A stretch of 64,000 bases of DNA from NCBI RefSeq assembly GCF_024746815.1, contig NZ_CP080525.1, positions 5,760,501 to 5,824,500 on the forward strand. The letters run 5' to 3'. Positions 42,436 through 61,644 of the stretch are shown here, piece after piece; within the stretch, counting starts at the first letter, position 1, and each line of letters opens with the position of its first letter. The translations under genes were made by a program, and so were the position numbers. The notes under the pieces are model-generated. The model was not told where the DNA came from and ran no database searches. It saw only the letters and a program-made list of their open reading frames with translations. Origin of the DNA: Mesorhizobium sp. AR07 (GTDB lineage: Bacteria > Pseudomonadota > Alphaproteobacteria > Rhizobiales > Rhizobiaceae).

Positions 42436-42460
42436 GTTGCGCTGCTATGCTGGACGAAAA

Positions 42461-42491
42461 CGGCCGGAGCGCGGGAGCCGCGCGCCGGCCG
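42461..42491 (-). terminator. Terminator-like stem-loop after the binding-protein gene
   Basis: Read on the minus strand, a long GC-rich stem (7 bp, one mismatch, 6 bp, 3-base loop) is followed by TTTT. This is the most terminator-like of the stem-loops in the window and probably gives partial termination between binding protein and permeases. Confidence 0.65.
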
Positions 42492-42497
42492 CGAACA

Positions 42498-43847: not shown

Positions 43848-43921
43848 GCTTTCAGCCTTCCCTATTTTTGCCCCAGTTACGCGAATATCCCAGGCGCGGC
43901 GTTCTCCCGCCCGCGCAAGGG

Positions 43922-44698: not shown

Positions 44699-44904
44699 GC
44701 TGCATATCCTGACTGCGCGTCGGCAATTTATCAGCCTCGCCCGACCAACGCGCTCCTGGTTCCTTCCGGAATGTTGGACCTTGATCTGGCATCTCGGAAC
44801 AGATTAGACTTGGCAGGGAAATCGTCAAGCGTTGAATCGGCTCGTACCGCATTGCCTGCGCCAGGCCATCGAACCATCATCTCGTTTTTCAGGAACCTTG
44901 CACA
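44699..44904. promoter_or_regulatory. Divergent intergenic region with a possible IclR-type site
   Basis: This gap separates the SDR/importer operon from the SMP-30-like gene and must hold both promoters. TCCGGAATGTTGGA at 44766-44779 resembles the TCCG-N6-(C/T)GGA sites found at 53672, 56352, 58405 and 61631 but has one weaker arm. No clear -35/-10 pair was recognised. Confidence 0.35.
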
Positions 44905-45780: not shown

Positions 45781-46962
45781 TCAGAGCGATGGTGTGCGAT
45801 AGAGGACCTTGCCTTTCACCGAGATCTCCACATCGACGACATAGGCCGCCATGCCCCCGGGATTCATGGTGATGCCCAATCCCGGCGCCGCGGGCAGCAC
45901 CACCTCGCCATTCGCGTTTGGCAAGAGATGGGTTTCGCTCATGTCCCAGGCCACGGATTTGGGCGCGAACGGATATTCGCAGATGACATGATCCTTCAAG
46001 CCCGCATAGGGCTGCAGCGAAGCGCAGAGCGCCAGGTGCGAGGTGAAGGTGTGGTTGACATAGGTTACATCTCGCGCCGCCGCGAAGTCGGCGACAAGCT
46101 TGGCCGGACCGATGCCGCCGATGCGGCCACAATCGATCTGGACATAGGCGACCTTGCCGTAGTCGATCAACTGGCGGGCCATGTGAACATTGTGCGAGGC
46201 TTCGCCGCCGGCAAGACGCACCTTGCCGCCCCTTGCGGCCAGCGCCGCATAGGCGTCGTAGGCGCCGCCGTGAAACGGCTCCTCGAGCCAGAGCGCGCCG
46301 ACGTCTTCGAGCATGGCGATGCGCGCAGCGGCCGCGTCTACATCCTCGCGGAATATCTGACCCGCATCGATCAGCAATGTTCCCCCATCGCCAAGGCCCT
46401 CGCGCGCGGCCCGAAGGTGGTCACGGTCGTCGGCCAGGCTGCCGCGGCCGAACGGACCCCAGCCGCATTTGACGGCGCGAAAGCCCTTTTCCCGCGCCGA
46501 ACGGCAACCCGCCAGCGTTTCCTGCGGCGTGTCGCCGAAGAGCTGCGACGCATAGGGCAGTTTTGGATAGGCCCTGGCGTAGCCGAGAAGTTCGTAGACC
46601 GGAACCTGACGCTTGCGCCCGAGAAGGTCCCACAATGCCATCTCGATGCCGGAGAAGGTGTGGGCCGCCTGCAGCAGATCCATGCATTCGAGTTCGACCG
46701 CGGCGCCGATGCGCGCTATGTCGGAGGCGGTCTCCAGCTGTTGCCCGAGAACGACGTCGCGCACCGGCTTGCAGGCTCCGTGCGACATCGGCGTGACATA
46801 GGCGGCAATGGACACCAGCGGCGAGGCTTCGCATTCGCCCCAGCCGATCATGCCGCCGGCAGCGACCCGAACGACCAGGGCATCCTGGCTTCCGTCCCCG
46901 GCATCGGTGACGACAGGCATGGACAAATAGAAAAAATCGACTGCTTCAATCTTCATGATCAT
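45781..46962 (-). CDS. Enolase-superfamily enzyme, KxG type, copy 2
   Basis: 393 residues. Active-site set: Lys165-x-Gly167 (VKCGWGPFG), Asp199 (LIDAG), Glu227 (WLEEP), Glu254 (AGGE), Asp277 (VQIDCGRIGG), His304 (YVNHTF). The same KxGWGPFG motif and spacing occur in the enzyme at 30617-31768, but the dyad block is QID instead of QPD. The start is 1 base after the upstream stop; a second ATG two codons later is possible. Last gene of the dipeptide-type importer operon. Confidence 0.88.
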   Translation of the reverse strand: MIMKIEAVDFFYLSMPVVTDAGDGSQDALVVRVAAGGMIGWGECEASPLVSIAAYVTPMSHGACKPVRDVVLGQQLETASDIARIGAAVELECMDLLQAAHTFSGIEMALWDLLGRKRQVPVYELLGYARAYPKLPYASQLFGDTPQETLAGCRSAREKGFRAVKCGWGPFGRGSLADDRDHLRAAREGLGDGGTLLIDAGQIFREDVDAAAARIAMLEDVGALWLEEPFHGGAYDAYAALAARGGKVRLAGGEASHNVHMARQLIDYGKVAYVQIDCGRIGGIGPAKLVADFAAARDVTYVNHTFTSHLALCASLQPYAGLKDHVICEYPFAPKSVAWDMSETHLLPNANGEVVLPAAPGLGITMNPGGMAAYVVDVEISVKGKVLYRTPSL

Positions 46963-46963
46963 C

Positions 46964-48136
46964 TCACTGTACGCGGAATGTGGAAAGTGCGGCCTCGTCG
47001 AGTGTAACGCCGAGGCCGGGCTTGGTGGGCAAGGGAATACGGCCGTCGACGATCGGCAGTTCTTCCGAGCATAGCTCCGTCCTCAGCCGCGAATCGGCAA
47101 GCTCGCGCGGCAGGAATTCGATGTGGGTGCAGGTCGGCGAAACCACGGAGAGATGCGCCGAAGCGGCGATGCCGATCGCCGACTTCCAGCAATGCGGCAC
47201 CACGAGCAGGCCATGGTCGGCGGCGTGCATGGCGACCCGGCGTGCTTCGGTGAGGCCGCCGACGCGACCGACGTCGGGCTGCGCGACGTCCAGGCCGCCA
47301 GTGCGGAAAAGTTCGAGAAACTCGAAGCGTGAGTTTAGCCATTCGCCGGCGGCGATCCTGACGGGCGAAGCCTTGACCAGCTTGGCGTACCCCTCGACGT
47401 CGTCGGACGGAAGCGGCGTCTCGATGAAGAAGATGTCCTGGTCGGCGAACATCTCGATGGCACGCAGTGCCTCCTTCCAGTCGCGCCAGGCATAGGCGAC
47501 ATCGACCATCACCGTCATTTCAGGGCCGATCGCCTTACGGCATGCCGCGACGATTTTCGCGATCTCACGATCGTCCTCGATCTGCAGCGAATTGTGCGAG
47601 TACGGCCCCTTGGTGCAGACCTCCAGTTTTACCGCGCGGAAGCCGAGCGCCTTCGCTTTTTCCGCTCGTTCTACCAGAATGCGGGTGTAGGTATCGAGAT
47701 CGTCGCCCTCTGGCAGCAGCGAGGCGTAGGGCGTGATCGTCGGATTGACCGCGCCGCCGAGCAATTGCCAGCATGGCTTGCCCTCGACCTTGCCGCGCAG
47801 ATCCCAGAGCGCCATGTCGAGCGCACCCATGGCGCAGATGCCGAGGCCGCGACGCCCGGTCATCGCCGAACCCTTGTACATCTTGTCCCATAGGCCCTCG
47901 ACATCGCTCGGATCGGCGCCGACCAGCATCTCGGTGAGGCCGAGGCCCATGATGTGGGTGCCCGGCGCCTCGATCATGGCGCGGGCGGCCCACGGATTGG
48001 TGTCGGTCTCGCCGATGCCCACATGGCCTTCGTCGGTGTGGATCTTGACGACCAGATTGTCTTGCGCCGACGAGCAGGCGTCGGCTCGGTAATCCGGGAC
48101 GAGAAGCACGAAGCATTCGACTTTGGTGATCTTCAC
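46964..48136 (-). CDS. Enolase-superfamily enzyme, KxE type, copy 2
   Basis: 390 residues. Active-site set: Lys170-x-Glu172 (AVKLEV), Asp212 (MVDVAYAW), Glu239 (FIETP), Glu265 (AAGEW), Asp288 (AQPDVGRVGG), His315 (VPHCWK). Very similar in layout to the enzyme at 35270-36478, including the ASLLPEG/ASLQPAG loop and the C-terminal IPLPTKPGLGV, so the two are paralogues in different importer operons. Presence in a dipeptide-type importer operon suggests that this importer carries an acid sugar or glycosyl acid and not peptides. Confidence 0.9.
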   Translation of the reverse strand: MKITKVECFVLLVPDYRADACSSAQDNLVVKIHTDEGHVGIGETDTNPWAARAMIEAPGTHIMGLGLTEMLVGADPSDVEGLWDKMYKGSAMTGRRGLGICAMGALDMALWDLRGKVEGKPCWQLLGGAVNPTITPYASLLPEGDDLDTYTRILVERAEKAKALGFRAVKLEVCTKGPYSHNSLQIEDDREIAKIVAACRKAIGPEMTVMVDVAYAWRDWKEALRAIEMFADQDIFFIETPLPSDDVEGYAKLVKASPVRIAAGEWLNSRFEFLELFRTGGLDVAQPDVGRVGGLTEARRVAMHAADHGLLVVPHCWKSAIGIAASAHLSVVSPTCTHIEFLPRELADSRLRTELCSEELPIVDGRIPLPTKPGLGVTLDEAALSTFRVQ

Positions 48137-48153: not shown

Positions 48154-50172
48154 TCAGTTTGCGTTGGTCGAAACTTCCGGAGCGTTCGGCCAGGTTGCAC
48201 GGCGCTCAAGTTCGTCGAGCGGGTGATGGCAGCGTATGTTCAGGCCCTCCGGCGTCTTGCGCCACGGCGGCGCCTCCTTGTCGCAGATGTCGCCGATCCG
48301 CCAGGCGCAGCGACCGGCATAGGCGCAGCCATCGGGCGTCGGCGGCCTTGCCGTTTCGGGCTTGCGGCTCGCATCCGGGCGTGACCGCAGCGGTGTCGGC
48401 ACCGCGTCGAGAAGGCTGTGGGTGTAGGGGTGGAAGGGCGCTGAAAAGACCTGATCGCGAGGCCCCATTTCCATGATGTCGCCGGCAAACAGCACGCAGA
48501 CGCGGTCGGCCAGCATACGCACCACCGCGAGATCGTGAGAGATGAACAGCATGGCAATGCCGCGCTCGGCCTTCAGCCGCTGCAAGAGTGCCAGGATGCT
48601 GGCTTGCACCGAGACGTCGAGCGCCGAGAGAATCTCGTCGCACAAAAGCAGCGACGGCTCGGCGATGAGGCCGCGGGCGATGGCGACGCGCTGGCGCTCG
48701 CCGCCGGACAGTTCGTCGGGGAAGCGGTTGGCGTATTTCGCGTCCAGCCTGACATCGGCGAGCGCGGCGACGACGGGAGCCTCGGCCTTGCTGCCGAAGA
48801 AGAATTCCAGCGGTCGTGCCAGCGCACGGCTGATGCGGGCGCGGGGATTGAGCGAGGCGTCGGGGTTCTGGAACACGAACTGGATCAGCTGGCGCTCCTC
48901 GGCGTCGCGTTGCTTGACACGGCCGGCGAGCGGCTTCCTGGACAGGGAGATGCGTCCGCTGGTGGGTGCGATCAGCCCCGCGACGGCGCGCGCCAGCGTC
49001 GACTTTCCACTGCCGGATTCGCCAACCAGCGCGAATGTCTCACCCTCCCTTATGTTGAGGGTGATGTCGCGGATGGCGGTGAAGCCGCGGCCGGGGCGGC
49101 CATAGACGACGCTGACGTTCTCGACGGCGAGGAGTTCCTTGTTCGTCGCCGCGGCAACCGGAGCGGCAACCGGCCGATCGTCCGCGGGCGCCACGATCCC
49201 GGGCCAGCGCCAACAGGCGACCTCGCGTCTGGGGCCTGCCGGCTGCAACGCTTGCCGGTCGGTGGAACAAAGTGGCAGCGCCCAGTCGCAGCGAGGCGCG
49301 AACGGGCAACCGGGCGGCAGATCGTGCCGCTGCAGCAGGCCGCGCAATGGCCGCGCCGGCAGGCCGGATCGATCGTCGATGCGGGGAATGGAGCCGATCA
49401 GACCTCGGGTGTAGGGATGTTTCGGATTGGAAAACAGTTCGGCGGTCGGCGCGATCTCGACCATGCGCCCGGCATACATGACGCCAACGCGATCGGCGAT
49501 CTGCGACAGCAAGGCGAGATCGTGCGTGACGTAGAGCATCGACATGGCAAGCCGCGCGCGCAAGGCGATCAGCAGCGCGATGATCTGCTCCTGCGTGGTG
49601 ACATCGAGACCGGTCGTCGGCTCGTCGAGCACGACGAAGGCCGGGTCGCAGGCAAGCGCCATGGCGATGCAGACACGTTGCTGCTGCCCGCCGGAAAGCT
49701 GGTGCGGAAAGCGCGCCAGGAAATCCGCCGCCGCCGGCAAGCCGACGAGATCGAAGAGTTCCCGGGTCCGCCCGACGCGCTTTTGTGGAGCACCAAAGCC
49801 GTGCGCGGCAAGGGCCTCGTCGATCTGTCCGCCGACCCTTATGCCGGGGTTGAGCGCCGTCGTTGGATTTTGCGGCACGAAAGCGATGCGGGCGCCGCGC
49901 AGGCGGTCCAGGTCCGGGCGGCCGAGCGCCAGCAGGTTATGGCCGTCGAAGCGGATCGCGCCGCCATCGGTGCGCATGGCCGGCGGACGATAGCCGAGAA
50001 GCTGCAGCGCGACGGTCGACTTGCCGCAGCCGGATTCTCCCACGAGGCCGAAGACTTCGCCCGGTGCGATGGTGAAGTTCACGTCGTCGACGACGCGCAG
50101 GAAGCCCTGGCCCTGACGGTAGGAGACCGACAGATGCTCGACCGCGACGATGGGAGATACGGCATCCTGCAT
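48154..50172 (-). CDS. Dipeptide-type ABC importer, fused DppD-DppF ATPase
   Basis: 672 residues with two complete ATPase domains. Domain one: [33 protein letters not shown], then the oligopeptide-type Cys-containing C-terminal segment ([16 protein letters not shown]). Domain two: [34 protein letters not shown] and a second Cys segment. Each Cys segment probably binds an Fe-S cluster, as in DppD/DppF. Fusion in one chain is common in rhizobia. Overlaps the permease stop by 1 base. Confidence 0.95.
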
Positions 50173-51068
50173 TACTGGTTTCCCAGCTTCACGGTGCGGC
50201 CGAGGATGCGCGCGAGGCCTTCAGTGAACAGATTGAGGCCGACGACGAGCGACGCCAGCGACAAGCCTGGTCCGAGTACGGTGATCGGCGAAATGATGAG
50301 CAGCGCCCGGTTCTCGCTGATCATCAGTCCCCACTCCGGCGTTGGCGGGCGCAGTCCGAAACCGAGAAAACCGAGCGAGCCGATCAGCACCGGGGCGTAG
50401 CCGGCGCGCAGTGCGAATTCGACGAGGAGGACGCTGCTTGCATTGGGCAGCAATTCGCGACGCATCACCGACCACGCGCTTTCGCCGCGCAGCCGCGCGA
50501 CGGTGACATAATCGCGCGTCGCGATGTCGATGGCCGCCGCCCGCGCCATGCGGGCGATGCGCGGCGCGTATACGAGTGCCACCACCAGCACGATCAACAC
50601 CGGATTGCCGGACATTTCGCTGCCCGCGGCTGCGATGGCGAGGAGCGCAAGGACGAGAAAGGGAATGCTGATCAGTGCTTCGAGCAGCCGCTGGATGAGT
50701 TCGTCTACCCAACCGCCGACATAGCCGGAGAGCAGGCCGAGAATGGCGCCGATCACAAGACCGAGCAGCGTTCCCGACAGCGAAAGCAGGATAACGATGT
50801 GGCTGCCGTGCACGACACGGCTGAAAATGTCGCGGCCAAGCTGATCGACGCCGAACGGATGGGCAAGGCTCATTCCCGAAAGCGGCCGCCCGGTGCCCAT
50901 CTGCGAAAAGCCGTAAGGTGCCCAGAACGGGCCGGTAATCGCGACGATCAGATGGATGACGAGCACGATCAGGCCGATGCGGAAGCTGATCGGGGTCTGT
51001 CGCCATAGCGGCAGCAGGCCACTCAGACGGCTTGGCGGGGCGGGCATATTGGCTTGCTCGACGCTCAT
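50172..51068 (-). CDS. Dipeptide-type ABC permease 2 (DppC-like)
   Basis: 298 residues, five to six membrane segments. N-terminal domain with HPFGVDQLGRDIFSRVVHGS, typical of OppC/DppC, and the docking loop ARLRGESAWSVMRRELLPN. C-terminal PTPEWGLMISENRALL block present. Confidence 0.94.
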   Translation of the reverse strand: MSVEQANMPAPPSRLSGLLPLWRQTPISFRIGLIVLVIHLIVAITGPFWAPYGFSQMGTGRPLSGMSLAHPFGVDQLGRDIFSRVVHGSHIVILLSLSGTLLGLVIGAILGLLSGYVGGWVDELIQRLLEALISIPFLVLALLAIAAAGSEMSGNPVLIVLVVALVYAPRIARMARAAAIDIATRDYVTVARLRGESAWSVMRRELLPNASSVLLVEFALRAGYAPVLIGSLGFLGFGLRPPTPEWGLMISENRALLIISPITVLGPGLSLASLVVGLNLFTEGLARILGRTVKLGNQ

Positions 51069-51072
51069 TGGG

Positions 51073-52023
51073 TCAGCTCGCGCGCAGTCGTGGGTTGATC
51101 AGGATCGCCGCGACATCGGCCATGAGATTGGCCGCCACATAGACGAAAGCGGCGATCATCACTGTCGCCTCGATGACCGGCAGATCGCGCAGCTGCAGGG
51201 AGTCGACCAACAGGCTTCCGAAGCCGGGATAGGAGAACACTTTCTCGACAACGACGACGCCACCGACCAGGTAAGCAAGGTTCAGCGCTGTGATGTTGAG
51301 CGTCGGCACAAGTGCATTGGGCAGCGCGTGGCGCAGCAGCACGCGGCGGCGCGACAGACCTTTCAACTCCGCCATGCGGATATAGTCGGAATCGAGCACT
51401 TCGATCAGGTTGTCGCGCAGCATGCGCACCGCATAGACCGACATGACGATGGCGAGCGTCAGCGCCGGCAGCGTCATCGCCCGAATGTATTCCCAGGCGC
51501 TCGATGTTGCGTCGACAAGCGAGATGGCGGGCAACAGTGGCAGCATGACGACAAAGGCGAGCAGCAGCAGCGTTGCGAGCAGGAAATCCGGCAGCGACAG
51601 CAGAACCAGCGTGACCACCGAGAGTGCATGGTCGAGCGGCTTGTCGCGGTTCAAGGCCTGCAACAGCGCGGGAATGATCGTCAGCGGCAGATAGAGCAGC
51701 AAGGCATAGGTCGAGAGCAGCACCGTGTTGAAGATGCGCTGGCCGAGAATGGATGTGACAGGACGATTTGAGACGAGCGATTGGCCGAGATCGCCGCTGA
51801 GCAACCCGCCGAGCCATGCCAAGTAGCGGATTGGCGCCGCATGATCGAGGCCGAGCTTGGTCCGCAGAAGCGCCAGCGCCTCGGGCGTCGCGTCGCGCCC
51901 GAGAATGCGCGAGGCAACGTCGCCAGGCAAGACTTCAAGCATCGCGAAGACGATAAGAGAGACGATCAGCAGCGTCACCACGGACATCAAGGCCCGGCGA
52001 ACCACCAGTTTGAAAATGGTCAC
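51073..52023 (-). CDS. Dipeptide-type ABC permease 1 (DppB-like)
   Basis: 316 residues, six membrane segments. N-terminal LVVRRALMSVVTLLIVSLIV, the DLGQSLVSNRPV segment and the docking loop AELKGLSRRRVLLRHALPNA; the late VEKVFSYPGFGSLLVDSLQL block is diagnostic of DppB/OppB. Confidence 0.95.
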   Translation of the reverse strand: MTIFKLVVRRALMSVVTLLIVSLIVFAMLEVLPGDVASRILGRDATPEALALLRTKLGLDHAAPIRYLAWLGGLLSGDLGQSLVSNRPVTSILGQRIFNTVLLSTYALLLYLPLTIIPALLQALNRDKPLDHALSVVTLVLLSLPDFLLATLLLLAFVVMLPLLPAISLVDATSSAWEYIRAMTLPALTLAIVMSVYAVRMLRDNLIEVLDSDYIRMAELKGLSRRRVLLRHALPNALVPTLNITALNLAYLVGGVVVVEKVFSYPGFGSLLVDSLQLRDLPVIEATVMIAAFVYVAANLMADVAAILINPRLRAS

Positions 52024-52094: not shown

Positions 52095-53621
52095 TTACTT
52101 GCAGGAGAGGGTTTCAAAGTTCAGATTGAAGTTCTGCGCACGCGGCGTGTAGCCTTCGCAGCCCTTGCGGAGCGCAAGCACCTGGTGAACGAACATCGGC
52201 AGGACCAATCCACCCTCCTTGGCGAGCAATTCGCCGGTCTGCTGGAACAGCTTGTTGCGCTCGGCCGGATCGACGGTTGTGTTGGCCTTCAGGAGCAGCG
52301 CGTCATAGTCGGGGCGCTCCCAATGCGTCTCCTTCCATTTGGCGTTCTGGGTGTAGGCGGTTGCGAGACCTTCCCCTGGCGGCCGCATCGACCATGCGGA
52401 GGTCGTGATCGACTTCTTTAGCCACACATCGTCCCAGAAACTGTCGGCCGGCGTGACGATGACATTGATGTCGAACCCGGCGGGCTTGGCCATCTCGGCG
52501 TAGACCTGCGCCATCAGCACCATGCCGGGCACGCCTTCGGCGGTGTAGAGATCGAACTTCAGCCCATCCTTGTATCCCGCTTCGGCGAGCAGCTTCTTGG
52601 CAAGCTCGATATCCTGCTTGGGCGCTTCCTTGGTGTAGGAGGCCGGGCTCCCGACGGGCACCGGATTGTCGGCGCCGGGTTCGCCGAAACCAAGCAGCAC
52701 GGTGTCGACCATCGCCTGGCGATCGACGACGGCTTTCATCGCTTCTCGCACCTTCGGGTTGTCGAATGGCGGCGTGTCGACCCAAGCCGAAATCGTCATC
52801 GAGTTCGACGCCGCGGTTTGCAGAAGTTGGACCGACGGATCGTCCTTCAGGGAAGAAATGACCGACGGATCGACATTCAGCATGAGATCGATCTGACCGG
52901 CCTTCATCGCCGAAACGGCTGCCACCGCTTCCTGGGCGACAGTGATGCGCAGGCAGTCCGACTTGGGTTCGCCGGCCTTCCAATAATTCGGATTCTTGCG
53001 CAGGATGCGCACTGGCGCGTTGGGTGTGAACTGCTCCTGCATGAATGGACCGGTTCCATCCTCATGGAGGCGAAGCGTTTGTCCGGTCGCGCCATTCGGC
53101 ACGATGTTGGTGAATTTGTTGGTTATGAGGACCGGCAGCTCGACCACCGGTTTCTTGGTGGTGAACACCACGGTCGACGGGTCCGGCGCGGTGATGCCGT
53201 CCGGATCGAGGAATTCGAGAACAGCCTGGGCGCCGGAACCCGTCTTGGGATCGAGCAACCGCTTGAAGCTCCAGACCACGTCGGCCGATGAAAAATCCTT
53301 GCCGGAATGGAATTTCACGCCCTGCCGCAACTTGAAGGTCCAGCTCAGGCCGTCCGGCGAGACCGACCATTCGGTCGCCAGCTCAGGCAGAACGTTGAAA
53401 TTGTCGTCGATGTCGACGAGCCGATTGTAGACGGCGAAGGTGTGATAGGCATCGTCGCCGGAATGCATGTCGGCGGGATCCATGGACTGCTTCTCGCCGC
53501 TCCATTCGTAGCCCAGTATCTTCACGCATTCGTCGCCGGCAGCGGCAAAGGCCGCCGGCATCCAGCCTGCAAAACCGAGTGCCGCGATGGCGATCCCGGA
53601 CAACCACTTGGTCGTGCTCAT
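52095..53621 (-). CDS. Dipeptide-type periplasmic binding protein (family 5)
   Basis: 508 residues from the ATG at 53621 with GGGAGGAGAAA before it; an in-frame codon 117 bases upstream is not supported. Sec signal MSTTKWLSGI, hydrophobic core, cut after PAAFA. Mature landmarks: ATEWSVSPDGLSWTFKLRQG, VKFHSGKDFSSADVVWSFKR, and the late LFQQTGELLAKEGGLVLPMF. First gene of the operon 53621-45781. An IclR-type inverted repeat lies 51 bases upstream. Ligand unknown; the two dehydratase-like genes at the operon end argue against simple peptides. Confidence 0.94.
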   Translation of the reverse strand: MSTTKWLSGIAIAALGFAGWMPAAFAAAGDECVKILGYEWSGEKQSMDPADMHSGDDAYHTFAVYNRLVDIDDNFNVLPELATEWSVSPDGLSWTFKLRQGVKFHSGKDFSSADVVWSFKRLLDPKTGSGAQAVLEFLDPDGITAPDPSTVVFTTKKPVVELPVLITNKFTNIVPNGATGQTLRLHEDGTGPFMQEQFTPNAPVRILRKNPNYWKAGEPKSDCLRITVAQEAVAAVSAMKAGQIDLMLNVDPSVISSLKDDPSVQLLQTAASNSMTISAWVDTPPFDNPKVREAMKAVVDRQAMVDTVLLGFGEPGADNPVPVGSPASYTKEAPKQDIELAKKLLAEAGYKDGLKFDLYTAEGVPGMVLMAQVYAEMAKPAGFDINVIVTPADSFWDDVWLKKSITTSAWSMRPPGEGLATAYTQNAKWKETHWERPDYDALLLKANTTVDPAERNKLFQQTGELLAKEGGLVLPMFVHQVLALRKGCEGYTPRAQNFNLNFETLSCK

Positions 53622-53671: not shown

Positions 53672-53685
53672 TCCGAAATGCCGGA
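53672..53685. promoter_or_regulatory. IclR-type operator in front of the dipeptide-type importer operon
   Basis: TCCG-AAATGC-CGGA, preceded by TAT, 51 bases upstream of the binding-protein start. The same 14 bases occur at 56352-56365 and related copies at 58405, 58425, 61611 and 61631. Confidence 0.65.
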
Positions 53686-53916
53686 CAAGCGTTCGCGTTT
53701 ACAGACTGGCACAATATCCGGGTTCCCTCGTGAGTCAAGAAACCGACGGAGCGAATTGCGCCCTTGCCGCCGCCGGCCGCTCAGCGAGCGGGCGCTCCTT
53801 GCGGCAACCGAGCGCATCCGGGTGGCTTCCGCTGAAGCGGTGGAGCCGAACATGGCAGTCATAATCCATAGGGCTACCGCGCCCATACTGTGTGAAAACA
53901 TCAGTATGTGATGGTT

Positions 53917-53997
53917 TTGATGTAAAGAGCCCTAAATTATATCATATGTTGACATAGATAATGGTATTTGACAATCAGAACGGCGTAGCATTACTGT
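53917..53997 (+). promoter_or_regulatory. AT-rich promoter region in front of the IclR gene
   Basis: The 530-base gap 53622-54151 holds no gene I can support. Its AT-rich middle has TTGATG-N17-TATCAT (53917-53945) and further TTGACA boxes at 53949 and 53968, the latter with TACTGT 18 bases on. These are plausible promoters for the plus-strand IclR gene. The rest of the gap shows only the operator at 53672. Confidence 0.4.
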
Positions 53998-54151
53998 ATG
54001 ACGCCGTGGATCGAAGGGACGACAAGCCGACAGCGTGCCGTCGCTTGTCCGCGCTTGTTTCGGGCTAGAAGGTCGCGCGGACAAATGCGGGTGCCGTTGC
54101 TTTCAGCCGTGGCGATGCCAGGTCGTGTCATGGCCAGTGTCGATTTTCGCA

Positions 54152-54975
54152 ATGGCCGCAGACGCATCAATGGATGATCAAATGGTGCGACCCCAGGATC
54201 CATTGTCAGCATCGGCCGAGGTCGACCAGGATGATTCCAAGCCGCGCGTCCAGACAGCCGTGCGAACCGTGGCGATCCTGCTTTGCGTCGCCCGTAGCGG
54301 CAATGGCTTGAAAGCCAAGGAAATCAGTGAACAGCTCGACCTGCCGCGCCAGGTCACATACCACCTGCTGCATACGATGCTCGGCACCGGCATCCTGCGC
54401 AGAAACGCTCAGAACCGCTACGTTCTTGGATTGGCCGCAGCGCCGATAGCGGAAGGCTTCCGCCGGCAGATCGCACCGCCCGAGCTCATCGCGCCGAAGG
54501 TCCGTGCAGCCGTCGCGGCGACCGGCGAAACCGCGTACGCCAGCGGCTGGATCGACGGACGAATCGTCGTGCTGGCAACGGCCAGGCCAGGGGACAATCG
54601 GCGGTTCAGGCGGTTGAGGTGCCCCACGGCTATAGCGGCCACGCCCACGCGCGAGCCACGGGCAAGCTGCTGTTGGCCTTGACTGATGCCGAGACACGCG
54701 AATCCCATCTGGCGCCACACCTGCTGGTCCCGGTGACAAGCCGAACGGTGATCGATCGAAACTCGCTTCTCGCGCAATTGAAGCGGATCGCCGATCAGGG
54801 ATATGCCGTCGAGGAAGAGGAGTTTTCGATTGGTCTATGCTGTCTCGCCGTGCCGGTGGAGGGATTTGAAGGCAAGGTCGCCTTGGGCATCTCCGTGCCC
54901 ACGGAAAGGTTCAGGAAGCAGTTCGAGAACCATTTGGAAGCGCTGAAGACAATCGCACGCATGACCGAGGATTAG
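54152..54975 (+). pseudogene. IclR-family regulator interrupted by a frameshift
   Basis: The first frame gives the helix-turn-helix (GLKAKEISEQLDLPRQVTYHLL) and the start of the ligand domain (GETAYASGWIDGRIVVLATA). It then runs out of family likeness at about 54590. The frame shifted by -1 continues perfectly with QSAVQAVEVPHGYSGHAHAR, ATGKLLLAL, EEEFSIGLCCLAVPV to a stop at 54975. One extra G in the run GGGG at 54590-54593 would join both halves as ARPGGQSAVQ. So the gene is either freshly inactivated, phase-variable at the G-run, or carries a sequence error. The start is uncertain: 54152 is the first reasonable ATG, others at 54170 and 54182. Joined length is about 274 residues, normal for IclR. 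Confidence 0.8.
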
Positions 54976-55010
54976 CGGGCTTCGCCGGCGGCTGGACGGG
55001 AGATGAAGGG

Positions 55011-55757
55011 ATGAAGCTGCTCGAAGGCAGGCTGGCACTGGTGACGGGCGCGGGCCGCGGCATCGGAGCCGCCATCGCGCGTGGAATGGCGGAAGCCGGT
55101 GCTCGCGTGATCGTCGCCGACATCGACCCGACCGCGGCCGATCAAACCGCGCAAACGCTGAAAACCGATGGGCTGGATGCCCGGGGCGAGCGGCTCGATG
55201 TCACCGATCGAGAGGCGCTTACGGCGTTTGCCAGCTATGTTGCAAACAGCCACGGTGACTTGTCCATCTTGGTAAACAACGCCGGAGTGGCCGGAAACGA
55301 GCGCATCGACGACGCGGCGTCCGGCGAGGTGTGGGACCGCAACATCGCGGTCAACCTGACCGGGGCATTCAACATGGCGCGAGCCTTCCTGCCCGCCCTG
55401 AAGACGACACGCGGCTCGATTGTCAATATATCCTCCGTCGTGGCCTTCGCCAGCGGGTTCGCTCATGTAGGCTACACCGCCTCCAAGGGCGGAATTCGAT
55501 CGCTGACCCAAGTGATGTGCCGCGAATTCGCGCCGTTCGGGATCAGGGTCAACGCGGTGGCGCCCGGGTACATCGACACGCCCATGGGGGGCAAGGGAGA
55601 TGGTTCCACGGACGAATGGCTGCGCTGGCATTGTCCGTGGCAGCGTTTTGGTGAACCGCATGAAGTGGCCAGCCCCGTGGTTTTCCTCGCCTCGGCCGGA
55701 GCCGGTTTCATCAATGGCGTGACGCTCCCGGTCGATGGCGGCTATCTCACAATATGA
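55011..55757 (+). CDS. Short-chain dehydrogenase/reductase
   Basis: 248 residues. TGAGRGIG near residue 13, VADIDPTAA favouring NAD, NNAGV near 90, catalytic Ser in NISSVVA and YTASK, C-terminal INGVTLPVDGG. It lies 35 bases after the frameshifted IclR gene and 25 bases before the VOC gene, so all three probably share a transcript. Confidence 0.93.
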   Translation: MKLLEGRLALVTGAGRGIGAAIARGMAEAGARVIVADIDPTAADQTAQTLKTDGLDARGERLDVTDREALTAFASYVANSHGDLSILVNNAGVAGNERIDDAASGEVWDRNIAVNLTGAFNMARAFLPALKTTRGSIVNISSVVAFASGFAHVGYTASKGGIRSLTQVMCREFAPFGIRVNAVAPGYIDTPMGGKGDGSTDEWLRWHCPWQRFGEPHEVASPVVFLASAGAGFINGVTLPVDGGYLTI

Positions 55758-55782
55758 ACGCTAAATGTGATGGAGAGCGAGG

Positions 55783-56217
55783 ATGATCATCGGGTTCAAT
55801 CACACGAGTTTCACGGTTCCCGATCTCGAAAAGGCTGTACGGTTCTGGACCGACGAGCTCGGGTTCGAGGGGCAGGGGATTGTCGAGCGCCGGGGTGCCT
55901 GGGTCGCCAAAGTCACAGGCGTGCCCGATGCGCGCATACGTGTTGCTCACCTTCATGGCCATGGGCACCACATGGAGTTCATCGAGTATGCCGAGGGGGG
56001 CCGCGACAATCCGGCGGATTTGCCGGACAAGCCCGGGGTCGGGCATGTCTGTCTGGACGTCGAGGACATGGATGACACGTTCCGCCGGCTCATTGCCGCC
56101 GGCGCTACGGTGTTGGGTGAGATGACCAGCATCCGTGATCCTGCGATGGCTGCCTGCACCGCGGGCTATCTGCGCGACCCCAACGGCATCATCATCGAGC
56201 TGTTCGAGAGAGGGTGA
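55783..56217 (+). CDS. VOC-superfamily (glyoxalase fold) protein
   Basis: 144 residues in two modules. Candidate metal ligands: His7 (FNHTSFTV), Glu in HHMEFIEY, His in GVGHVCLDV and Glu in IIIELFERG. This layout fits lactoylglutathione-lyase-like isomerases and epimerases. Different from the VOC protein at 24543 (171 residues). Follows an SDR gene, which hints at epimerisation of the oxidised product. Confidence 0.88.
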   Translation: MIIGFNHTSFTVPDLEKAVRFWTDELGFEGQGIVERRGAWVAKVTGVPDARIRVAHLHGHGHHMEFIEYAEGGRDNPADLPDKPGVGHVCLDVEDMDDTFRRLIAAGATVLGEMTSIRDPAMAACTAGYLRDPNGIIIELFERG

Positions 56218-56351
56218 ACCGAACTGGCCGCCGGTTGCCGTGAGCCAAGCGATGCCATGGCCATGGAAGCGCGCTTTCAGGCCGATCGAGCCGGATCTGT
56301 TCGCTGTTACCCCACGTCCGCCGCCGTCTCAATGCCTTGCAGCGCGAGTAT

Positions 56352-56365
56352 TCCGAAATGCCGGA
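56352..56365. promoter_or_regulatory. IclR-type operator in front of the signal-less binding-like gene
   Basis: TCCG-AAATGC-CGGA, identical to the site at 53672, 69 bases upstream of the start at 56434. The rest of the 216-base gap 56218-56433 shows nothing else recognisable. Confidence 0.65.
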
Positions 56366-56433
56366 TATAAGTACAATAATGTAGACTCTGGCGTCGCTTG
56401 TGCTATGTCGGAAGCGAGAGCATGGAGTTGGAG

Positions 56434-57564
56434 ATGGCCCCCATCAAGCTGCGCGGAATGACTTGGAATCATCGGCGTGCGATCGACCCCCTGGTGGAAA
56501 CGATGCCGATGTTCCGGGCGCGTTATCCCGAGGTCGAAATCGAATGGTCGTCGCGGCCGCTGAGCGGTTTCGAGTTTACTCCGGTGGACATGCTGGCGAA
56601 GGACTTCGACTTCATCATTCTGGATCACCCCTTTACCGGCCTGATCGCGGCGACAGGCTGTCTCGTGCCGCTCGACGATATCATTGCGCCGGGGCAGGAC
56701 CCGTTCGTCGGACCGTCGCTGGAATCCTATCGACTGGGAGGATCGCTCTGGGCGATGCCTGTCGATGCCGCCTGCCAGGTCGCCGTTTCGCGGCCCGACC
56801 TCATCCGGGCGCTGGACACGGCCATCCCGGCCAATTGGCACGACCTGATGGCGCTTGGCGGGAAGGCCCGGCGCAAGGGCCACTGGCTGGGCATTGGGCT
56901 ATCGGGCGTGCACAGCCTGATGACGTTCTTCACGCTGATGGCCAATCTTGGCACGCCTTGCGCGACTGGCCGAGACGCAGAGTTCGCCGACCGGCATGCG
57001 GCAAGCGAGGTTCTTGGCCTCATGCGCGACCTGCTGAGCGTCTGCCCGGCCGAGGTGCTCGGCTGGAACAGCATCGAACTGCATGATCAGATGATGCAGC
57101 GCGACGACCTGGTTTTCTGCCCGGCGGTCTATTGCTACGCGACCTATGCCGAGGCCGACCAGCGACGACCGCTGCGCTTCCACGATTTCCCCGGACCCAA
57201 CGGGCCGGCCGGCTCGACAATCGGCGGCACCGGCCTCGGCGTGTCGGCGCACACGCGCCATCGCTCCGAGGCGCTTGCCTATGCGCGCTTCGCCGCAGAG
57301 CAGGCCACGCAGCACGCTTTCGCCCTGCATCACGGCCAGCCGGCGCGCCGCGATGCCTGGCAGGACGAGGCGATCAACGAACGCTTCGGCGGCTGCTACC
57401 GGCAGACGATGGCGACCATGGAAGCCTGCTGGACCAGGCCGCGCTACCAAGGCTATCTGGCGTTCCAGGAAAGGGCCGGCGACCTGATCGAGGCGCATCT
57501 GCGCGGCAGCGTCACGCAAGACGCGCTTCTCACCGAACTTCAGCGCTTGCACGCCGCCGGATAG
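56434..57564 (+). CDS. Solute-binding-protein-like protein without signal peptide
   Basis: 376 residues from the ATG at 56434, six bases after a GGAG; ATGs at 56422 and 56398 are alternatives, and none gives a signal peptide. The sequence looks like a family 1 (MalE-type) binding protein from its first strand: KLRGMTWNHRRAIDPLVETM, FEFTPVDMLAKDFDFIILDH, GGSLWAMPVDAACQVAVSRP, GGTGLGVSAHTRHRSEALAY. No permease or ATPase gene adjoins it. With no export signal it may work in the cytoplasm as a sensor or carrier, or be secreted by other means. It has its own IclR-type operator, so it belongs to the local regulon. Function unknown. Confidence 0.78.
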   Translation: MAPIKLRGMTWNHRRAIDPLVETMPMFRARYPEVEIEWSSRPLSGFEFTPVDMLAKDFDFIILDHPFTGLIAATGCLVPLDDIIAPGQDPFVGPSLESYRLGGSLWAMPVDAACQVAVSRPDLIRALDTAIPANWHDLMALGGKARRKGHWLGIGLSGVHSLMTFFTLMANLGTPCATGRDAEFADRHAASEVLGLMRDLLSVCPAEVLGWNSIELHDQMMQRDDLVFCPAVYCYATYAEADQRRPLRFHDFPGPNGPAGSTIGGTGLGVSAHTRHRSEALAYARFAAEQATQHAFALHHGQPARRDAWQDEAINERFGGCYRQTMATMEACWTRPRYQGYLAFQERAGDLIEAHLRGSVTQDALLTELQRLHAAG

Positions 57565-57574
57565 GATGCCGCCG

Positions 57575-58396
57575 TCAGCCGAGCCGTCGCGACAGCTTTT
57601 CCGCCGCCTTGATGACGCTGACGATCAGATAGTCGCGATTGGGTTTGACCAACCGCTGTTCGGGCGCAACCACGCTCAGCGCCGCGACACATCGACCGGA
57701 TGCATCGATGACCGGCGCGGCGACGCAGCCGGCATGTTCGTTGGTCTCGTTCAATTCGGTGGCATAGCCCTGACGGCGGAACCGCCGGATCTGGGCGATA
57801 AGCTTGCTGACGTCGGTGATGGCCCTTCCGGTTGGTGATTGGCGGATTGTGGCGGTCAGCAAGGTCGTCAGCGCCTTGTCATCCATGTCGGAAACCAGCA
57901 GCCGCCCGGCCGCTGCCCAGTTGACCGGAACGCGCGAGCCGACATTGCTGATGATGCGCAAGGGGCGAATGCCTTCCTCCTTCAGCAGCACCATCATCAG
58001 ATCGTTGTCGAGAACCGAGAGCTGCACGGTCTCGCCCGTTTCGTTGCGCAACTCCTCGGCGATCTGGCTGCCGTCCTTCAACAGATCGACATGGCTGCGA
58101 TAAGCCATGCCGAGTTCGAACAGCTTGCGGCCAAGAAACAATCCGCTGCCCTTGCCCGACGGAGCCAGATAATCCCCTTCCGACAAGGTGCGCACCAGTT
58201 CGTAGGCTGTCGACTTCGGGATCGAAAGCTCGGCGATGATCTGCGCCACGGTAACGGGTTCGCCTTGCCGCAGCATCAACTCGAAGATGTCGAGGGCGCG
58301 CCGGACGCTGCGCGAACCCGTGCTCTCGTCATCGGCGGCGTCCCGTCCGGGTTCATCGGGATTTTTCGCGGCGGCTGGTTTTATCGAGGTGCGCAT
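57575..58396 (-). CDS. IclR-family transcriptional regulator
   Basis: 273 residues. Helix-turn-helix VTVAQIIAELSIPKSTAYEL at about 48-67, then the ligand domain with ETGETVQLSVLDNDLMMVLL and the AGCVAAPVIDASGRCVAALS block. Intact, unlike the IclR gene at 54152. The two operator copies at 58405-58438 begin only 8 bases before the ATG and no ribosome site fits between, so the message may be leaderless. Divergent from an enolase-superfamily gene. The best candidate for the protein that binds the TCCG-N6-CGGA sites. Confidence 0.92.
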   Translation of the reverse strand: MRTSIKPAAAKNPDEPGRDAADDESTGSRSVRRALDIFELMLRQGEPVTVAQIIAELSIPKSTAYELVRTLSEGDYLAPSGKGSGLFLGRKLFELGMAYRSHVDLLKDGSQIAEELRNETGETVQLSVLDNDLMMVLLKEEGIRPLRIISNVGSRVPVNWAAAGRLLVSDMDDKALTTLLTATIRQSPTGRAITDVSKLIAQIRRFRRQGYATELNETNEHAGCVAAPVIDASGRCVAALSVVAPEQRLVKPNRDYLIVSVIKAAEKLSRRLG

Positions 58397-58404
58397 TTGG
58401 ATGT

Positions 58405-58438
58405 TCCGGCATTGTGGACTATCGTCCGGTATTTGGAA
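58405..58438. promoter_or_regulatory. Tandem IclR-type operators in the divergent promoter
   Basis: TCCG-GCATTG-TGGA (58405-58418) and TCCG-GTATTT-GGAA (58425-58438) start exactly 20 bases apart. Read on the other strand, this region lines up base for base over about 40 bases with 61610-61650, so both are copies of one compound operator. Confidence 0.75.
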
Positions 58439-58474
58439 ATGTTACCTTGCGTGAGTCTGCGGGAGGGGTGGATC

Positions 58475-59605
58475 ATGAGAATCATCGACATCGAGGTCAT
58501 CGAACTGCGTGTACCCGGCTGGACCGGCGATACCTTCGACGGGTCATACGACAATTGTCTCGTTCTCGTCCACACTGACGAAGGTCTTACCGGGATTGCC
58601 GAGGTGGACAGCGTTCCCTCGGTGATCCGCGCCATCGTCGACGCACCGCGCTCCCACACCCATGCCATGGGCCTGAAGGAAGCAATCCTCGGCGCCGATC
58701 CATCCGATGTCGAGGGGCTGTGGGATCGCATGTACGACCTCACCAGCTACTACGGCAGGCGCGGGGCGGTCATTCACGCCATCTCCGCCGTCGACATTGC
58801 TCTGTGGGATCTGCGCGGCAAGACGCTCGGCAAGAGTGTCGGCCAGCTTCTCGGCGCGCGTCGGCGCGACCGCGTGTTGGCCTACGGGACCGTTTATCCG
58901 CTTGGCGAAACGGCCGACGATGTGCGCAAGAATATCGACCGTGGGCTCAAGCTCGGGCTGAAGGCGATCAAGATCGTCGCCGACCCGTTCTGGCGCGAGG
59001 ACGTGGACAAGACGGCTGGACTCATACGGGCGGCGCGCGAGCATGTCGGACCCGACATCCGTTTGATGGTCGACGCCGCGACCGCCTGGGCCAAGGCCGA
59101 GGAGGGGCTGCCGTTGATGCCGATCTTCAAGGAGCATGATTTCTTCTGGGTAGAGGCGCCATTACCGATCGACGATCTCGACGGGCATGCGCGTTTTCAA
59201 GGATTTGATGTGCCGATCGGCGGCGGCGATCTCGGCTTGACCACGCGCTTCGAATATGAGGAAGCCTTTGAGCGCGGCAAGATCGACATCGCCCAACCCG
59301 ACGTGACCATGGCCGGCGGCATCACCGAACTGATGCGGATCGCCGAACTGGCGCAAAGGCTCGGCAAACGCGTGGTCACGCACGGTTACAAATCGAACAT
59401 AACCATCGCGGCGAACCTCGCTTTCCTGTCGCAGCACTGGATGGACGAGCCATGTGAATATTCCACCAGCCAGTCGCCGCTGCGCTGGCATCTGACGAAG
59501 GAAAATTTCCCGATCGGCGCCGATGGCCGGATCGCCATTCCGCAAGGGCCGGGACTGGGTGTGACCCTCGATCCGGAGACCGTGGCAAGATTTCGGGTCG
59601 GATGA
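58475..59605 (+). CDS. Enolase-superfamily enzyme, KxV type with Asp third ligand
   Basis: 376 residues from the ATG at 58475 with GGGAGGGG before it. Active-site set: Lys166-x-Val168 (AIKIVAD), Asp200 (MVDAATAW), Glu227 (WVEAP), Asp252 (GGGDLG) in place of the usual Glu, Asp276 (AQPDVTMAGG), His303 (VTHGYK). It is the only member of this type in the window. Controlled by the tandem operators upstream, together with the divergent IclR gene. Probably an acid-sugar dehydratase or racemase; substrate unknown. Confidence 0.88.
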   Translation: MRIIDIEVIELRVPGWTGDTFDGSYDNCLVLVHTDEGLTGIAEVDSVPSVIRAIVDAPRSHTHAMGLKEAILGADPSDVEGLWDRMYDLTSYYGRRGAVIHAISAVDIALWDLRGKTLGKSVGQLLGARRRDRVLAYGTVYPLGETADDVRKNIDRGLKLGLKAIKIVADPFWREDVDKTAGLIRAAREHVGPDIRLMVDAATAWAKAEEGLPLMPIFKEHDFFWVEAPLPIDDLDGHARFQGFDVPIGGGDLGLTTRFEYEEAFERGKIDIAQPDVTMAGGITELMRIAELAQRLGKRVVTHGYKSNITIAANLAFLSQHWMDEPCEYSTSQSPLRWHLTKENFPIGADGRIAIPQGPGLGVTLDPETVARFRVG

Positions 59606-59608
59606 GGC

Positions 59609-60778
59609 CTATTTGCCGTCCGTGCGCCAGCGGGAAACAAGCTCTTCATTCAATTCGATGCCCAGGCCAGGCCCGGTGGGCAGTTCCATCAGCCCGTCGA
59701 CGACGGCTGGCTCGGGAGAAACCAGTTCGCGCCGCAAGACGCTGTCAAACACATGCGGCGAAACATATTCGAAGACCGGGCTCGCCTGACAGGCGGCCTG
59801 GAAATGCCGGCCGGCCGCCGACGTGATGCCGGTCTTCCAGCCATGCGGCACGACTTCGGCGCCGTGAAGTTCGCACATGTCGGCAATCCGGCGCATCTCG
59901 GTCAGTCCGCCGCCGCGTCCGATGTTTGGCTGGACCACCCCGACCCCGGCAACGGTCAACCACTCCCGAATCTCGAAACGGGTGGCGGCGGCTTCCGCGC
60001 CGCCAATGCGGATTGAACTCCTCTCCGCGAGCCGAGCATGGCCCGCGAGATCGTCGTGCTGCAGTGTCGCCTCGGCAAAGAAGATGTCGCAGTCGGAAAT
60101 TCGATCGAGGACGAAAAGTGCATCATGCCAATTGTGCCAGCGATAGCCGAAGTCGACAGCCATCAGGATGTCGTCGCCAAGCATCCGGCGACCTTCACCG
60201 ATGAGCCCGGCAAGCTCACGATCGGTCACCAGATCGTAGAACAGCACCTCCATCTTGACCGCTCGGAAACCTGCCTGGAGCGCGGCGTCGAATTGCCGGC
60301 CGATTTCCCGCATCAGGTCCCTGATGCCGCGACCCTGCGCGAGGCCCGGAAAAATGGTGCAGTAAGGTCTCAATTTTTCGCGACGCGCCCCGCCCATCAG
60401 CTTGTAGGCCGGTACGCCGAACTGCTTTCCCGCAAGATCGTGAAGGGCGATGTCGATGGCGGAGATCGCATGGATGCCGATGCCGCGCCGGCCGGGCCAG
60501 AAAGTGCCGTCATAGAGTTTTTGCCAGATTGCCGCGATCTCGATCGGATCCTCTCCAATCAGGATCTCACCTGCATTGCGGCTCCACAGATGAGCAGTCG
60601 GCATTTCGAGGAAGCTTTTGACAACGGATGGCGGCGCGTCGGCCTCGCCGAATCCGTAGCGACCGTCCTCGTCGTGGATCTTTATGATCACGGTGTCGGT
60701 CGTGCCGTCGAGATCGCCCGCGGAAACGACCGACGAAACGACCGGGATGACTTCGAGCCGCGCGATCTTGCTTGTCAT
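59609..60778 (-). CDS. Enolase-superfamily enzyme, KxE type, with Asn in the dyad position
   Basis: 389 residues from the ATG at 60778; an earlier in-frame codon at 60817 overlaps the SDR gene. Active-site set: Lys175-x-Glu177 (AVKMEV), Asp209 (AVDFGYRW), Glu236 (FFAEA), Glu262 (GGAEA), His312 (VPHGWK). The expected dyad Asp is Asn285 (VVQPNIGRGGG; codon AAC). Otherwise related to the enzymes at 35270 and 46964. The change should weaken His-Asp catalysis, so the reaction may rely on the Lys side only. Downstream of an SDR gene by 7 bases and convergent with 58475-59605 (3-base gap). Confidence 0.88.
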   Translation of the reverse strand: MTSKIARLEVIPVVSSVVSAGDLDGTTDTVIIKIHDEDGRYGFGEADAPPSVVKSFLEMPTAHLWSRNAGEILIGEDPIEIAAIWQKLYDGTFWPGRRGIGIHAISAIDIALHDLAGKQFGVPAYKLMGGARREKLRPYCTIFPGLAQGRGIRDLMREIGRQFDAALQAGFRAVKMEVLFYDLVTDRELAGLIGEGRRMLGDDILMAVDFGYRWHNWHDALFVLDRISDCDIFFAEATLQHDDLAGHARLAERSSIRIGGAEAAATRFEIREWLTVAGVGVVQPNIGRGGGLTEMRRIADMCELHGAEVVPHGWKTGITSAAGRHFQAACQASPVFEYVSPHVFDSVLRRELVSPEPAVVDGLMELPTGPGLGIELNEELVSRWRTDGK

Positions 60779-60785
60779 GATCTGC

Positions 60786-61541
60786 TCAATAGGTTGCGCG
60801 GCCGCCGGAAAGATCAAAGGTGAAACCGGTGGTGAAACTGCAGGCGGGGGAAACGATCCAGGAGATCATCTCGGCGGCCTCGTCGAGCTCGCCGCAGCGT
60901 TTCATCGGAATCTTGTCGGTCATATAGGTGACCTGTGCATCCGGCATCGCCGCCACCATCGGCGTGCGGATGACGGCGGGCGCCAGCGAATTGATGGTGA
61001 TGCCGGTCTCGGCATAGTCTTTGCCCATCGACTTCACCATGCCGATCAGGCCCGCCTTGGTCGCCGAGTAGGCGGTCATGCCGGCATTGCCTTCCTTTCC
61101 GGCGATGGAGGCGAGATGAAGGATGCGGCCATAGTTTTTCGATAGCATGTGCGGCAGCACCGCCTGCGAGACAAGAAGCGCGCCAAGCATGTTGATCTTG
61201 TAGACGACATCGAAATCGTCCGGGTCGACCTGATGCGCCTTGAGATTGGTCTGCCCGGTGATGCCGGCGCAATTGACCACCGCGTGCAATTGCCCGGTTT
61301 CGCGGATGACGCTGTCCCATACCGCGCTGTTCGATATCCGGTCGGTGATATCGATCGGATAGGCCGACGCCTCGCCACCGGTTGCGAGGATTTCGTCGGC
61401 CGTGGCGCGAGCACCTTGGCCGTTGCGGTCGAGGCAGATGATCTTTGCGCCGCGACGAGCCATAAGGGCGGCGGCAGCCTGCCCTATGCCGCTTGCCGCG
61501 CCGACGACCGCTATCGCGTAGGGCGTCGAAAAAGTGCTCAT
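60786..61541 (-). CDS. Short-chain dehydrogenase/reductase
   Basis: 251 residues from the ATG at 61541 with AGAGG before it. VGAASGIG near residue 15, CLDRNGQG (NAD-type acidic residue), a loop NCAGI in place of NNAG, catalytic Ser in LASIAG and YSATK, C-terminal FTTGFTFDLSGG. First gene of a two-gene operon with the enolase-superfamily enzyme at 59609. The tandem operator at 61611-61644 lies 70 bases upstream. Confidence 0.92.
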   Translation of the reverse strand: MSTFSTPYAIAVVGAASGIGQAAAALMARRGAKIICLDRNGQGARATADEILATGGEASAYPIDITDRISNSAVWDSVIRETGQLHAVVNCAGITGQTNLKAHQVDPDDFDVVYKINMLGALLVSQAVLPHMLSKNYGRILHLASIAGKEGNAGMTAYSATKAGLIGMVKSMGKDYAETGITINSLAPAVIRTPMVAAMPDAQVTYMTDKIPMKRCGELDEAAEMISWIVSPACSFTTGFTFDLSGGRATY

Positions 61542-61610
61542 TGCATGCCTCTTGCTGGTGATGAATTGACGCATCATGCGCGGCCGTTCGATCTCGTCAG
61601 GTTAGAGTAT

Positions 61611-61644
61611 TCCGCTTTTGCAGACAATAGTCCGCAATGACGGA
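61611..61644. promoter_or_regulatory. Tandem IclR-type operators in front of the SDR operon
   Basis: TCCG-CTTTTG-CAGA (61611-61624) and TCCG-CAATGA-CGGA (61631-61644), 20 bases apart as in the operator at 58405-58438, with the shared centre GACAATAGTCCGCAATG. Confidence 0.75.

Follow-up and report, generated by a model that had tools for sequence, protein, structure and literature searches.

The question raised by this locus is whether inverted repeats in front of importer, dehydrogenase and dehydratase-like genes mark a single regulon and, if so, which of the neighbouring regulators controls it. The window analysed here, a stretch of 64,000 nucleotides from Mesorhizobium sp. AR07 (contig NZ_CP080525.1, positions 5,760,501 to 5,824,500), belongs to an assembly of 8.73 Mb in 5 contigs with a listed contamination of 10.97%. 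The original prediction had proposed, on the basis of the palindrome TCCG-N6-CGGA, a local regulon under the control of an IclR-family protein. By comparison with relatives, the repeats are almost certainly the switches of one neighbouring regulator of the IclR type, for which iclR1 is the likely gene; the local regulon is supported by the co-conservation of IclR1 and a paired operator in 17 loci and by agreement with a published tandem motif of IclR group 1. We consider it highly likely that IclR1 is a local regulator acting through a tandem operator on a regulon for sugar and sugar-acid catabolism, with a repression that would be relieved by a sugar-derived effector.

The operator consists of two 14-mers whose starts lie exactly 20 bp apart, 34 bp in total, with the consensus TTCCGnAATnnCGGAC-N4-GTCCGnnATTnCGGAA; alignment of the six pairs of the window with their own reverse complements yields the dyad aTTCCGnAATnnCGGAC-nATn-GTCCGnnATTnCGGAAt. 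The motif had been described as a single palindrome with tandem copies at two places, 58405/58425 and 61611/61631. The spacing of 20 bp is correct for both, but the exact motif is present only at 61631, while 58405 and 61611 carry one mismatch and 58425 is weaker. Pairing also holds at all other cited sites, namely the exact and identical 14-mers at 53672 and 56352, which are present as described, and a weaker copy placed at 44766, which exists but starts at 44765. An additional pair at 38490/38510 had been overlooked, so that the unit is the 34-bp pair instead of the single palindrome and the number of operators is six. The distances of 8-70 bp given from the cited sites to gene starts agree with our measurements. 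Pair centres are located 26-124 bp from eight gene starts, five or six of them within 20-80 bp depending on the start chosen for SDR3, and 13-112 bp from gene starts in the relatives.

Counts of the single palindrome were rejected as evidence because they are near chance and uninformative. Exact TCCG-N6-CGGA occurs seven times in the window (3.13 expected), a number reached by 4 of 100 shuffles, and three of these seven palindromes (3609, 11252 and 54892) are outside the 25 best pairs of the window; with at most one mismatch, 51 copies were seen and 64 expected. Unlike the single palindrome, pairing at exactly 20 bp is far beyond chance. Scored with a matrix made from the other five, each of the six pairs ranks in the top six of 63,967 window positions, and with the full six-pair matrix they reach 26.8-32.2 bits, the next window position 13.5. 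The mean score of the partner site is maximal at an offset of 20 bp (offsets of 11-40 on both sides), the spacing found in 6/6 window pairs. This scoring was not fully blind, because pair 38490 and the weak partner sites had first been picked by eye; the related loci are an independent test of the pair motif. A sequence-only model built from the six window pairs (R1) assigned them at least 19.5 bits and nothing else in the window more than 6.5. The original prediction had called for a scan of the whole genome, in which the pair proved not to be frequent elsewhere: the same six places reached at least 19.4 bits and were the only ones above 12.3, the next places scoring 12.3 and 10.9 (150 of 2,484 first-look candidates fully scored).

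IclR1 is a member of the IclR family according to its Pfam scores for HTH_IclR (PF09339, 44.9 against a gathering threshold of 22) and IclR_C (PF01614, 126.2 against 24). Its protein sequence alone was used to fetch the comparative set of 17 loci (279,375 bases, 3.4-20.8 kb each) from Mesorhizobium, other Hyphomicrobiales, Aestuariivirga, Taklimakanibacter, Dongia, Rhodospirillaceae and further groups, many of them assembled from metagenomes, with best IclR1 segments of 56-90% identity. One of the loci, L023, belongs to Dongia deserti SYSU D60009, a strain that has much of the cluster. Operators were accepted there above 16 bits with a position weight matrix (PWM) from the six window pairs only, orthologues of window genes at an identity of at least 55%, and an operator was taken as upstream if its centre lay within 250 bp. 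The loci contain 48 operators, whereas 40 simulations gave 0.075 on average and never more than 1. The centres of 46 of them are at most 250 bp upstream of a window-gene orthologue, none is inside a mapped orthologue coding stretch, and the remaining two (L023:1051 and L027:998) precede an ABC-ATPase gene with 37-41% identity to ugpC.

The distribution follows the operon structure (Table 1). Counting genes with at least 260 bp of upstream room and a match starting no later than residue 60, 65 of 68 operon heads are preceded by an operator: iclR1 in 15/17 cases, enoD in 10/11, SDR3 in 10/10, SBP3 in 11/11, dppA in 9/9, SDR1 in 6/6 (L012, L016, L020, L021, L023 and L027), the SMP-30 gene in 1/1 and ugpC in 3/3 (L012, L018 and L019). 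None was found before nine operon-internal genes (enoC, enoE, dppB, dppC, dppDF, SBP2, ugpA, ugpE and the mutarotase-like gene; 0/46), including the internal genes of operon 2, which have no operator of their own in two relatives. The gene enoB has an operator in two of nine cases, L016 and L021, where it comes after iclR1 and is preceded by an operator of its own, and GntR, SBP1, enoA and SDR2 together have none (0/5). The presumed recognition-helix stretch reads PKSTAYEL in IclR1 and in 13 of the 14 loci that were aligned out of the 17, and PKSSAYEL in L028, as against PRSSIYEL in L034, a locus of genome G306.

Table 1. Operator pairs and genes of the iclR1 locus (window coordinates)
Feature	Position	Strand	Description	Remark
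Operator pair 1	38490..38523 (38490 + 38510)		upstream of ugpC-like ABC ATPase gene	TTGAC 32 bp upstream
Operator pair 2	44765..44798 (44765 + 44785)		between SDR1 (-) and SMP-30-type lactonase gene (+)	
Operator pair 3	53672..53705 (53672 + weak 53692)		upstream of dppA-like operon	resembles the common SBP3/dppA operator of 10 relatives
Operator pair 4	56352..56385 (56352 + weak 56372)		upstream of SBP3, a binding-protein-like gene	
Operator pair 5	58405..58438 (58405 + 58425)		between iclR1 (-) and enoD (+)	
Operator pair 6	61611..61644 (61611 + 61631)		upstream of SDR3-enoE operon	
iclR1	57575..58396	-	IclR-family regulator, HTH_IclR + IclR_C (Pfam)	likely regulator
iclR2	about 54152..54975	+	second IclR gene	start uncertain; HTH and effector domain in different frames
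ugpC	38574..39680	+	sugar-type ABC ATPase	presumably completes operon 2 importer
Operon 2	39699..44698	-	SDR1, SBP2 (sugar-type binding protein), ugpA, ugpE, DUF4432 gene	ugpA by Pfam, ugpE by eye
SMP-30/gluconolactonase-family gene	44905..45759	+	lactonase	family match
enoB, enoC	45781..48136	-	enolase-superfamily genes	end of operon 3
dppB, dppC, fused dppDF	48154..52023	-	operon 3 transporter genes	dppDF by Pfam, dppB and dppC by eye; order kept in relatives
dppA-like	52095..53621	-	dipeptide/nickel-class binding protein, head of operon 3	below all curated cut-offs
SBP3	56422..57564	+	maltose-binding-protein-like fold	in-frame TTG start also at 56398
enoD	58475..59605	+	enolase-superfamily (MR_MLE), acid-sugar dehydratase-like	
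enoE	59609..60778	-	enolase-superfamily, dehydratase-like	second gene of operon 6
SDR3	60786..61577	-	short-chain dehydrogenase, head of operon 6	start 61577 or 61541

In 10 genomes with iclR1 (our own included), each searched in full, all places above 16.6 bits are in the neighbourhood of this gene. One of them, in the genome of L018, stands before SDR1-SBP2 orthologues at a distance of 15 kb from iclR1; in that of L017 a place with 16.5 bits is far away and beside no relative of a window gene. For a survey of the family, R1 was applied to 297 genomes and the IclR1 protein to an identically drawn set of 297. The five genomes with iclR1 are all among the 21 with an operator match at E<=0.05, and the other 16 matches, in 292 genomes without iclR1, roughly match the 14.6 anticipated for this threshold. 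Leaving our own genome aside, the four highest scores belong to G299, G413 and G360 (24.7, 22.7 and 21.9 bits, all with iclR1) and to G306 with 21.0 bits. In G306 and in G419, which is of the same genus, an IclR gene other than iclR1 (32-33% identity) lies at most 0.5 kb from the match; these two genomes belong to the 16, and the loci of the other 14 show no IclR gene within 1.5 kb.

The operator is similar to known IclR sites. According to the main text of PMC8222616 (Suvorova and Gelfand 2021), which covers 181 orthologous groups, IclR group 1 recognises the motif GKTYCRYW3-4RYGRAMC, a TYCR-N5/6-YGRA palindrome; tandem sites with centres 18-22 nt apart occur in 94 orthologous groups, and most site centres lie 20-80 bp before the start of the gene. 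The window operator has the TYCR...YGRA half-sites, an even length (14-mer core) and a tandem spacing within 18-22 nt, and agrees with both the group-1 and the tandem description given there. It is nearest to the even-length subgroup NGT-12-ACN of that text (consensus NGTYCRAW4TYGRACN), which is rich in sugar, sugar-acid and short-chain dehydrogenase (SDR, COG1028) genes, but two differences emerge from 52 operators (6 of the window, and 46 that score more than 19 bits in the loci): the outer TCC is preceded by T (62%) or G (34%), and A/T makes up only part of the six central bases. Set against the same main text, the locus is a real and conserved regulon under IclR1, of a known kind and probably undescribed; our literature searches in titles and abstract openings found no paper on it. 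PMC12445098 reports on a further IclR-like protein, which regulates neighbouring sugar operons in Salmonella. Of the named NCBIfam equivalogs in this protein family, BhcR gives IclR1 its highest score (139.5 bits), and all curated cut-offs (BhcR 350, KdgR 275, PcaR 284.75 for PcaR/PcaU, AllR 406, IclR 380) are far above the scores of IclR1. The solved IclR-family repressors BlcR and TtgV (PDB 3mq0 and 2xrn) are related to IclR1 in sequence; they bind DNA as tetramers and regulate genes other than this set.

The position of the operator within the promoter suggests how it may work. A TTGAC was found 28-33 bp upstream of the operator edge, on one side, in 25 of 54 operators (6 from the window and 48 from relatives), while the other 6-bp bins tested contained at most three; the window operators with TTGAC at that distance are 38490, 44765 and 53672. 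For pair 3, the minus strand reads TTGACT-N16-TATTGT, resembling a -35 and a -10 box, with the operator following 4 bp on. At such a distance the operator follows directly on the -10 box and overlaps the start site, as expected of a repressor site. A repressing role is therefore probable for IclR1, and with a spacing of 20 bp two dimers would come to lie on one face of the DNA. IclR1 is thus expected to bind 34-bp operators at six places over about 23 kb, its own promoter included, most likely as a tetramer with two dimers on one helix face. At many promoters, the operator would begin just past the -10 box and cover the start site, where bound IclR1 would block transcription, and a sugar-derived effector in the IclR_C domain would release it. 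The location of pair 5 beside iclR1 suggests autoregulation.

The genes that follow the operators comprise two ABC importers, SDR1, SDR3, the lactonase, the mutarotase-like gene, four MR_MLE genes and SBP3; the DUF4432 gene is the one which we take to be mutarotase-like. The original prediction had rightly listed one importer and four enolase-superfamily enzymes, but its SDR2 and VOC gene have no operator directly before them and count only as candidate members, and its scope was too narrow, as operators also cover the second, sugar-type ABC importer, an SDR, the lactonase and the mutarotase-like gene. Such a gene set suggests that an aldose, or its acids, is taken up and broken down oxidatively. 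Oxidative, non-phosphorylating sugar pathways use enolase-superfamily dehydratases of the galactonate, rhamnonate and fuconate types, and the regulon shares the SDR, lactonase, dehydratase and importer gene types with them. It is unlike these pathways in having four dehydratase-like genes in one regulon, none at the cut-off of a named family, and no identified aldolase or kinase. The products of enoB, enoC, enoD and enoE are all below the NCBIfam cut-offs for galactonate, rhamnonate, talarate, mannonate and arabinonate dehydratases. Relatives of known structure were searched for enoB, enoC and enoD and were 2hzg, to which enoB is very close (547 bits), and 3sjn; text searches for 2HZG and 3SJN found no paper and hence no substrate.

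SBP3 shows no signal-peptide-like N-terminus, as judged by eye in the window and 11 relatives, and its predicted structure has a maltose-binding-protein-type fold (mean predicted local distance difference test, pLDDT, of 73), which did not point to a particular function. It is conceivable, although we regard it as rather doubtful, that the regulon represents an uncharacterised pathway across Alphaproteobacteria for a sugar outside the described regulons, with four non-redundant dehydratases acting on different acids from one uptake system, and with a cytosolic SBP3 serving as sugar-acid carrier, sensor or enzyme and not feeding a transporter. Relatives of SBP3 with 38-42% identity adjoin CoA-transferase genes on plasmids of Sinorhizobium meliloti and Ponticoccus, and these proteins possibly form a family of cytosolic binding proteins. 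Among plasmid loci, L076, where an IclR gene is beside the SBP3 relative, has no operator, and L075 has no site above 5.4 bits; SBP3 relatives consequently do not carry the operator by themselves.

Several observations weigh against our explanation. Directly before iclR1 of L017 there is no operator, the one of this locus preceding the adjoining SDR3, and in L028, whose IclR1 is 56% identical, iclR1 and enoD are below the PWM cut-off, R1 giving a weak site of 15.3 bits before iclR1. Genome G216, which carries iclR1, reaches 16.7 bits and is no better than several genomes without the gene. Close relatives contributed several of the 17 loci (for instance L018/L019, L020/L023/L027 and L024/L025), so that the counts are not independent, and the uniqueness in the genome refers to the candidates that were fully scored. 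The window operators of iclR1/enoD, SBP3 and SDR3 have no -35 box at a repressor-like distance, which makes repression less certain there. The regulon genes include no identified aldolase or kinase that could complete a sugar-acid pathway, and none was conclusively recognised among the genes without a window relative in 10 of the 17 loci, judged by eye from N-termini.

Of the other explanations, activation by IclR1 bound to the same pairs deserves most attention, since 29 of 54 operators overall, and three of the six in the window, lack TTGAC at the repressor-like position. Some members of the IclR family, such as PcaU and PobR, are activators. We nevertheless consider activation unlikely, as in the other 25 the TTGAC, 28-33 bp before the operator edge, implies an operator located past the -10 box at the start site, and no TTGAC cluster was observed within or after the operator. 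That the repeats reflect mere chance or the composition of GC-rich half-sites would agree with the near-expected number of single palindromes; for the pairs, this is refuted by the exact spacing of 20 bp, the leave-one-out ranks, the uniqueness in the genome, the conservation before operon heads and the absence from mapped coding sequence, and its probability is negligible.

Only slightly more credit can be given to a different regulator using the sites. Genes for a GntR/FCD (37638-38357) and a TetR protein (61960-62625) are within or beside the cluster, the start of the former 150 bp from the centre of operator 38490. However, a GntR orthologue (at least 55% identity) is present in one of the 17 loci and a TetR one in none of the gene map, whereas operators were found in 16 of the 17 by PWM and weakly by R1 in L028; moreover, the motif type and the 20-bp spacing fit the IclR sites in the main text of PMC8222616. 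It is just as improbable that iclR2, which the original prediction had named as a candidate alongside IclR1, is the regulator or shares the sites. The gene belongs to the same family and is located about 450 bp from operator 53672, but its frames are split, none of the 17 loci has an orthologue with at least 55% identity, and its presumed recognition-helix stretch, PRQVTYHL, is unlike the PKSTAYEL found in the IclR1 group. A match to the C-terminal piece of iclR2 occurs in one of nine other iclR1 genomes (E<=1e-20), on another contig, and in 4 of 150 relatives including our own, the other three at 38-40% identity. As a conserved regulator, iclR2 was therefore rejected because of the split frames and the lack of co-conservation, which leaves IclR1 as the candidate. 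The frame break of iclR2 may be a real frameshift or an assembly error.

The surroundings of iclR2 bear on the identical 14-mers at 53672 and 56352. SBP3 is present in 11 loci; in 10 of them it is divergent from dppA and has one operator in common with it, the exception being the L012 locus, which is without dppA. In the window, iclR2, SDR2 and the VOC gene lie between dppA and SBP3, each of which retains an operator copy in the same orientation, and SDR2 and the VOC gene (55011-56217) sit together with iclR2 in what is probably an inserted cassette. Pairs 3 and 4 share on average 26.2 and 24.6 of 36 letters with the common SBP3/dppA operator, compared with 18.9-19.6 (up to 20.5 if flipped) for the other four window pairs. 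A cassette was probably inserted here and the operator duplicated in the process, which would explain the identity of the two 14-mers.

Some sites and genes outside the regulon were noted in addition. A fifth enolase-superfamily gene (35270-36478), SBP1 and the GntR/FCD regulator adjoin the regulon at 35270-38357 with no such operator assigned, and the fifth enolase-superfamily gene has an operator in neither of the two relatives carrying it. A different tandem IclR-like operator, with the centre TGTCC-N8-GGACA or similar, was seen in L011 (own genome, C2:112559), L034, L036, L039, L044 and L045; transporter or amino-acid-enzyme genes, recognised by eye from N-termini, are near some of these operators, and a different IclR gene is at most 0.5 kb away only in L034 and L036. 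On a plasmid of Rhizobium tumorigenes, a site of 12.7 bits (L077:4503-4537, E 0.008) lies just before a row of amino-acid-importer genes ending in RidA and an IclR gene (36.5% identity), and may be a diverged IclR operator.

The assignment to IclR1 would unite four uncharacterised dehydratase-like genes, two importers and an apparently cytosolic SBP3 under a single regulator, as a functional unit that can be tested. As far as the genome was scored, the operator has no counterpart outside the six places, and so the effector of IclR1, once found, would lead directly to the substrate of the whole set. Furthermore, the set of 17 loci provides an example of how a common divergent operator may become two upon the insertion of a cassette.

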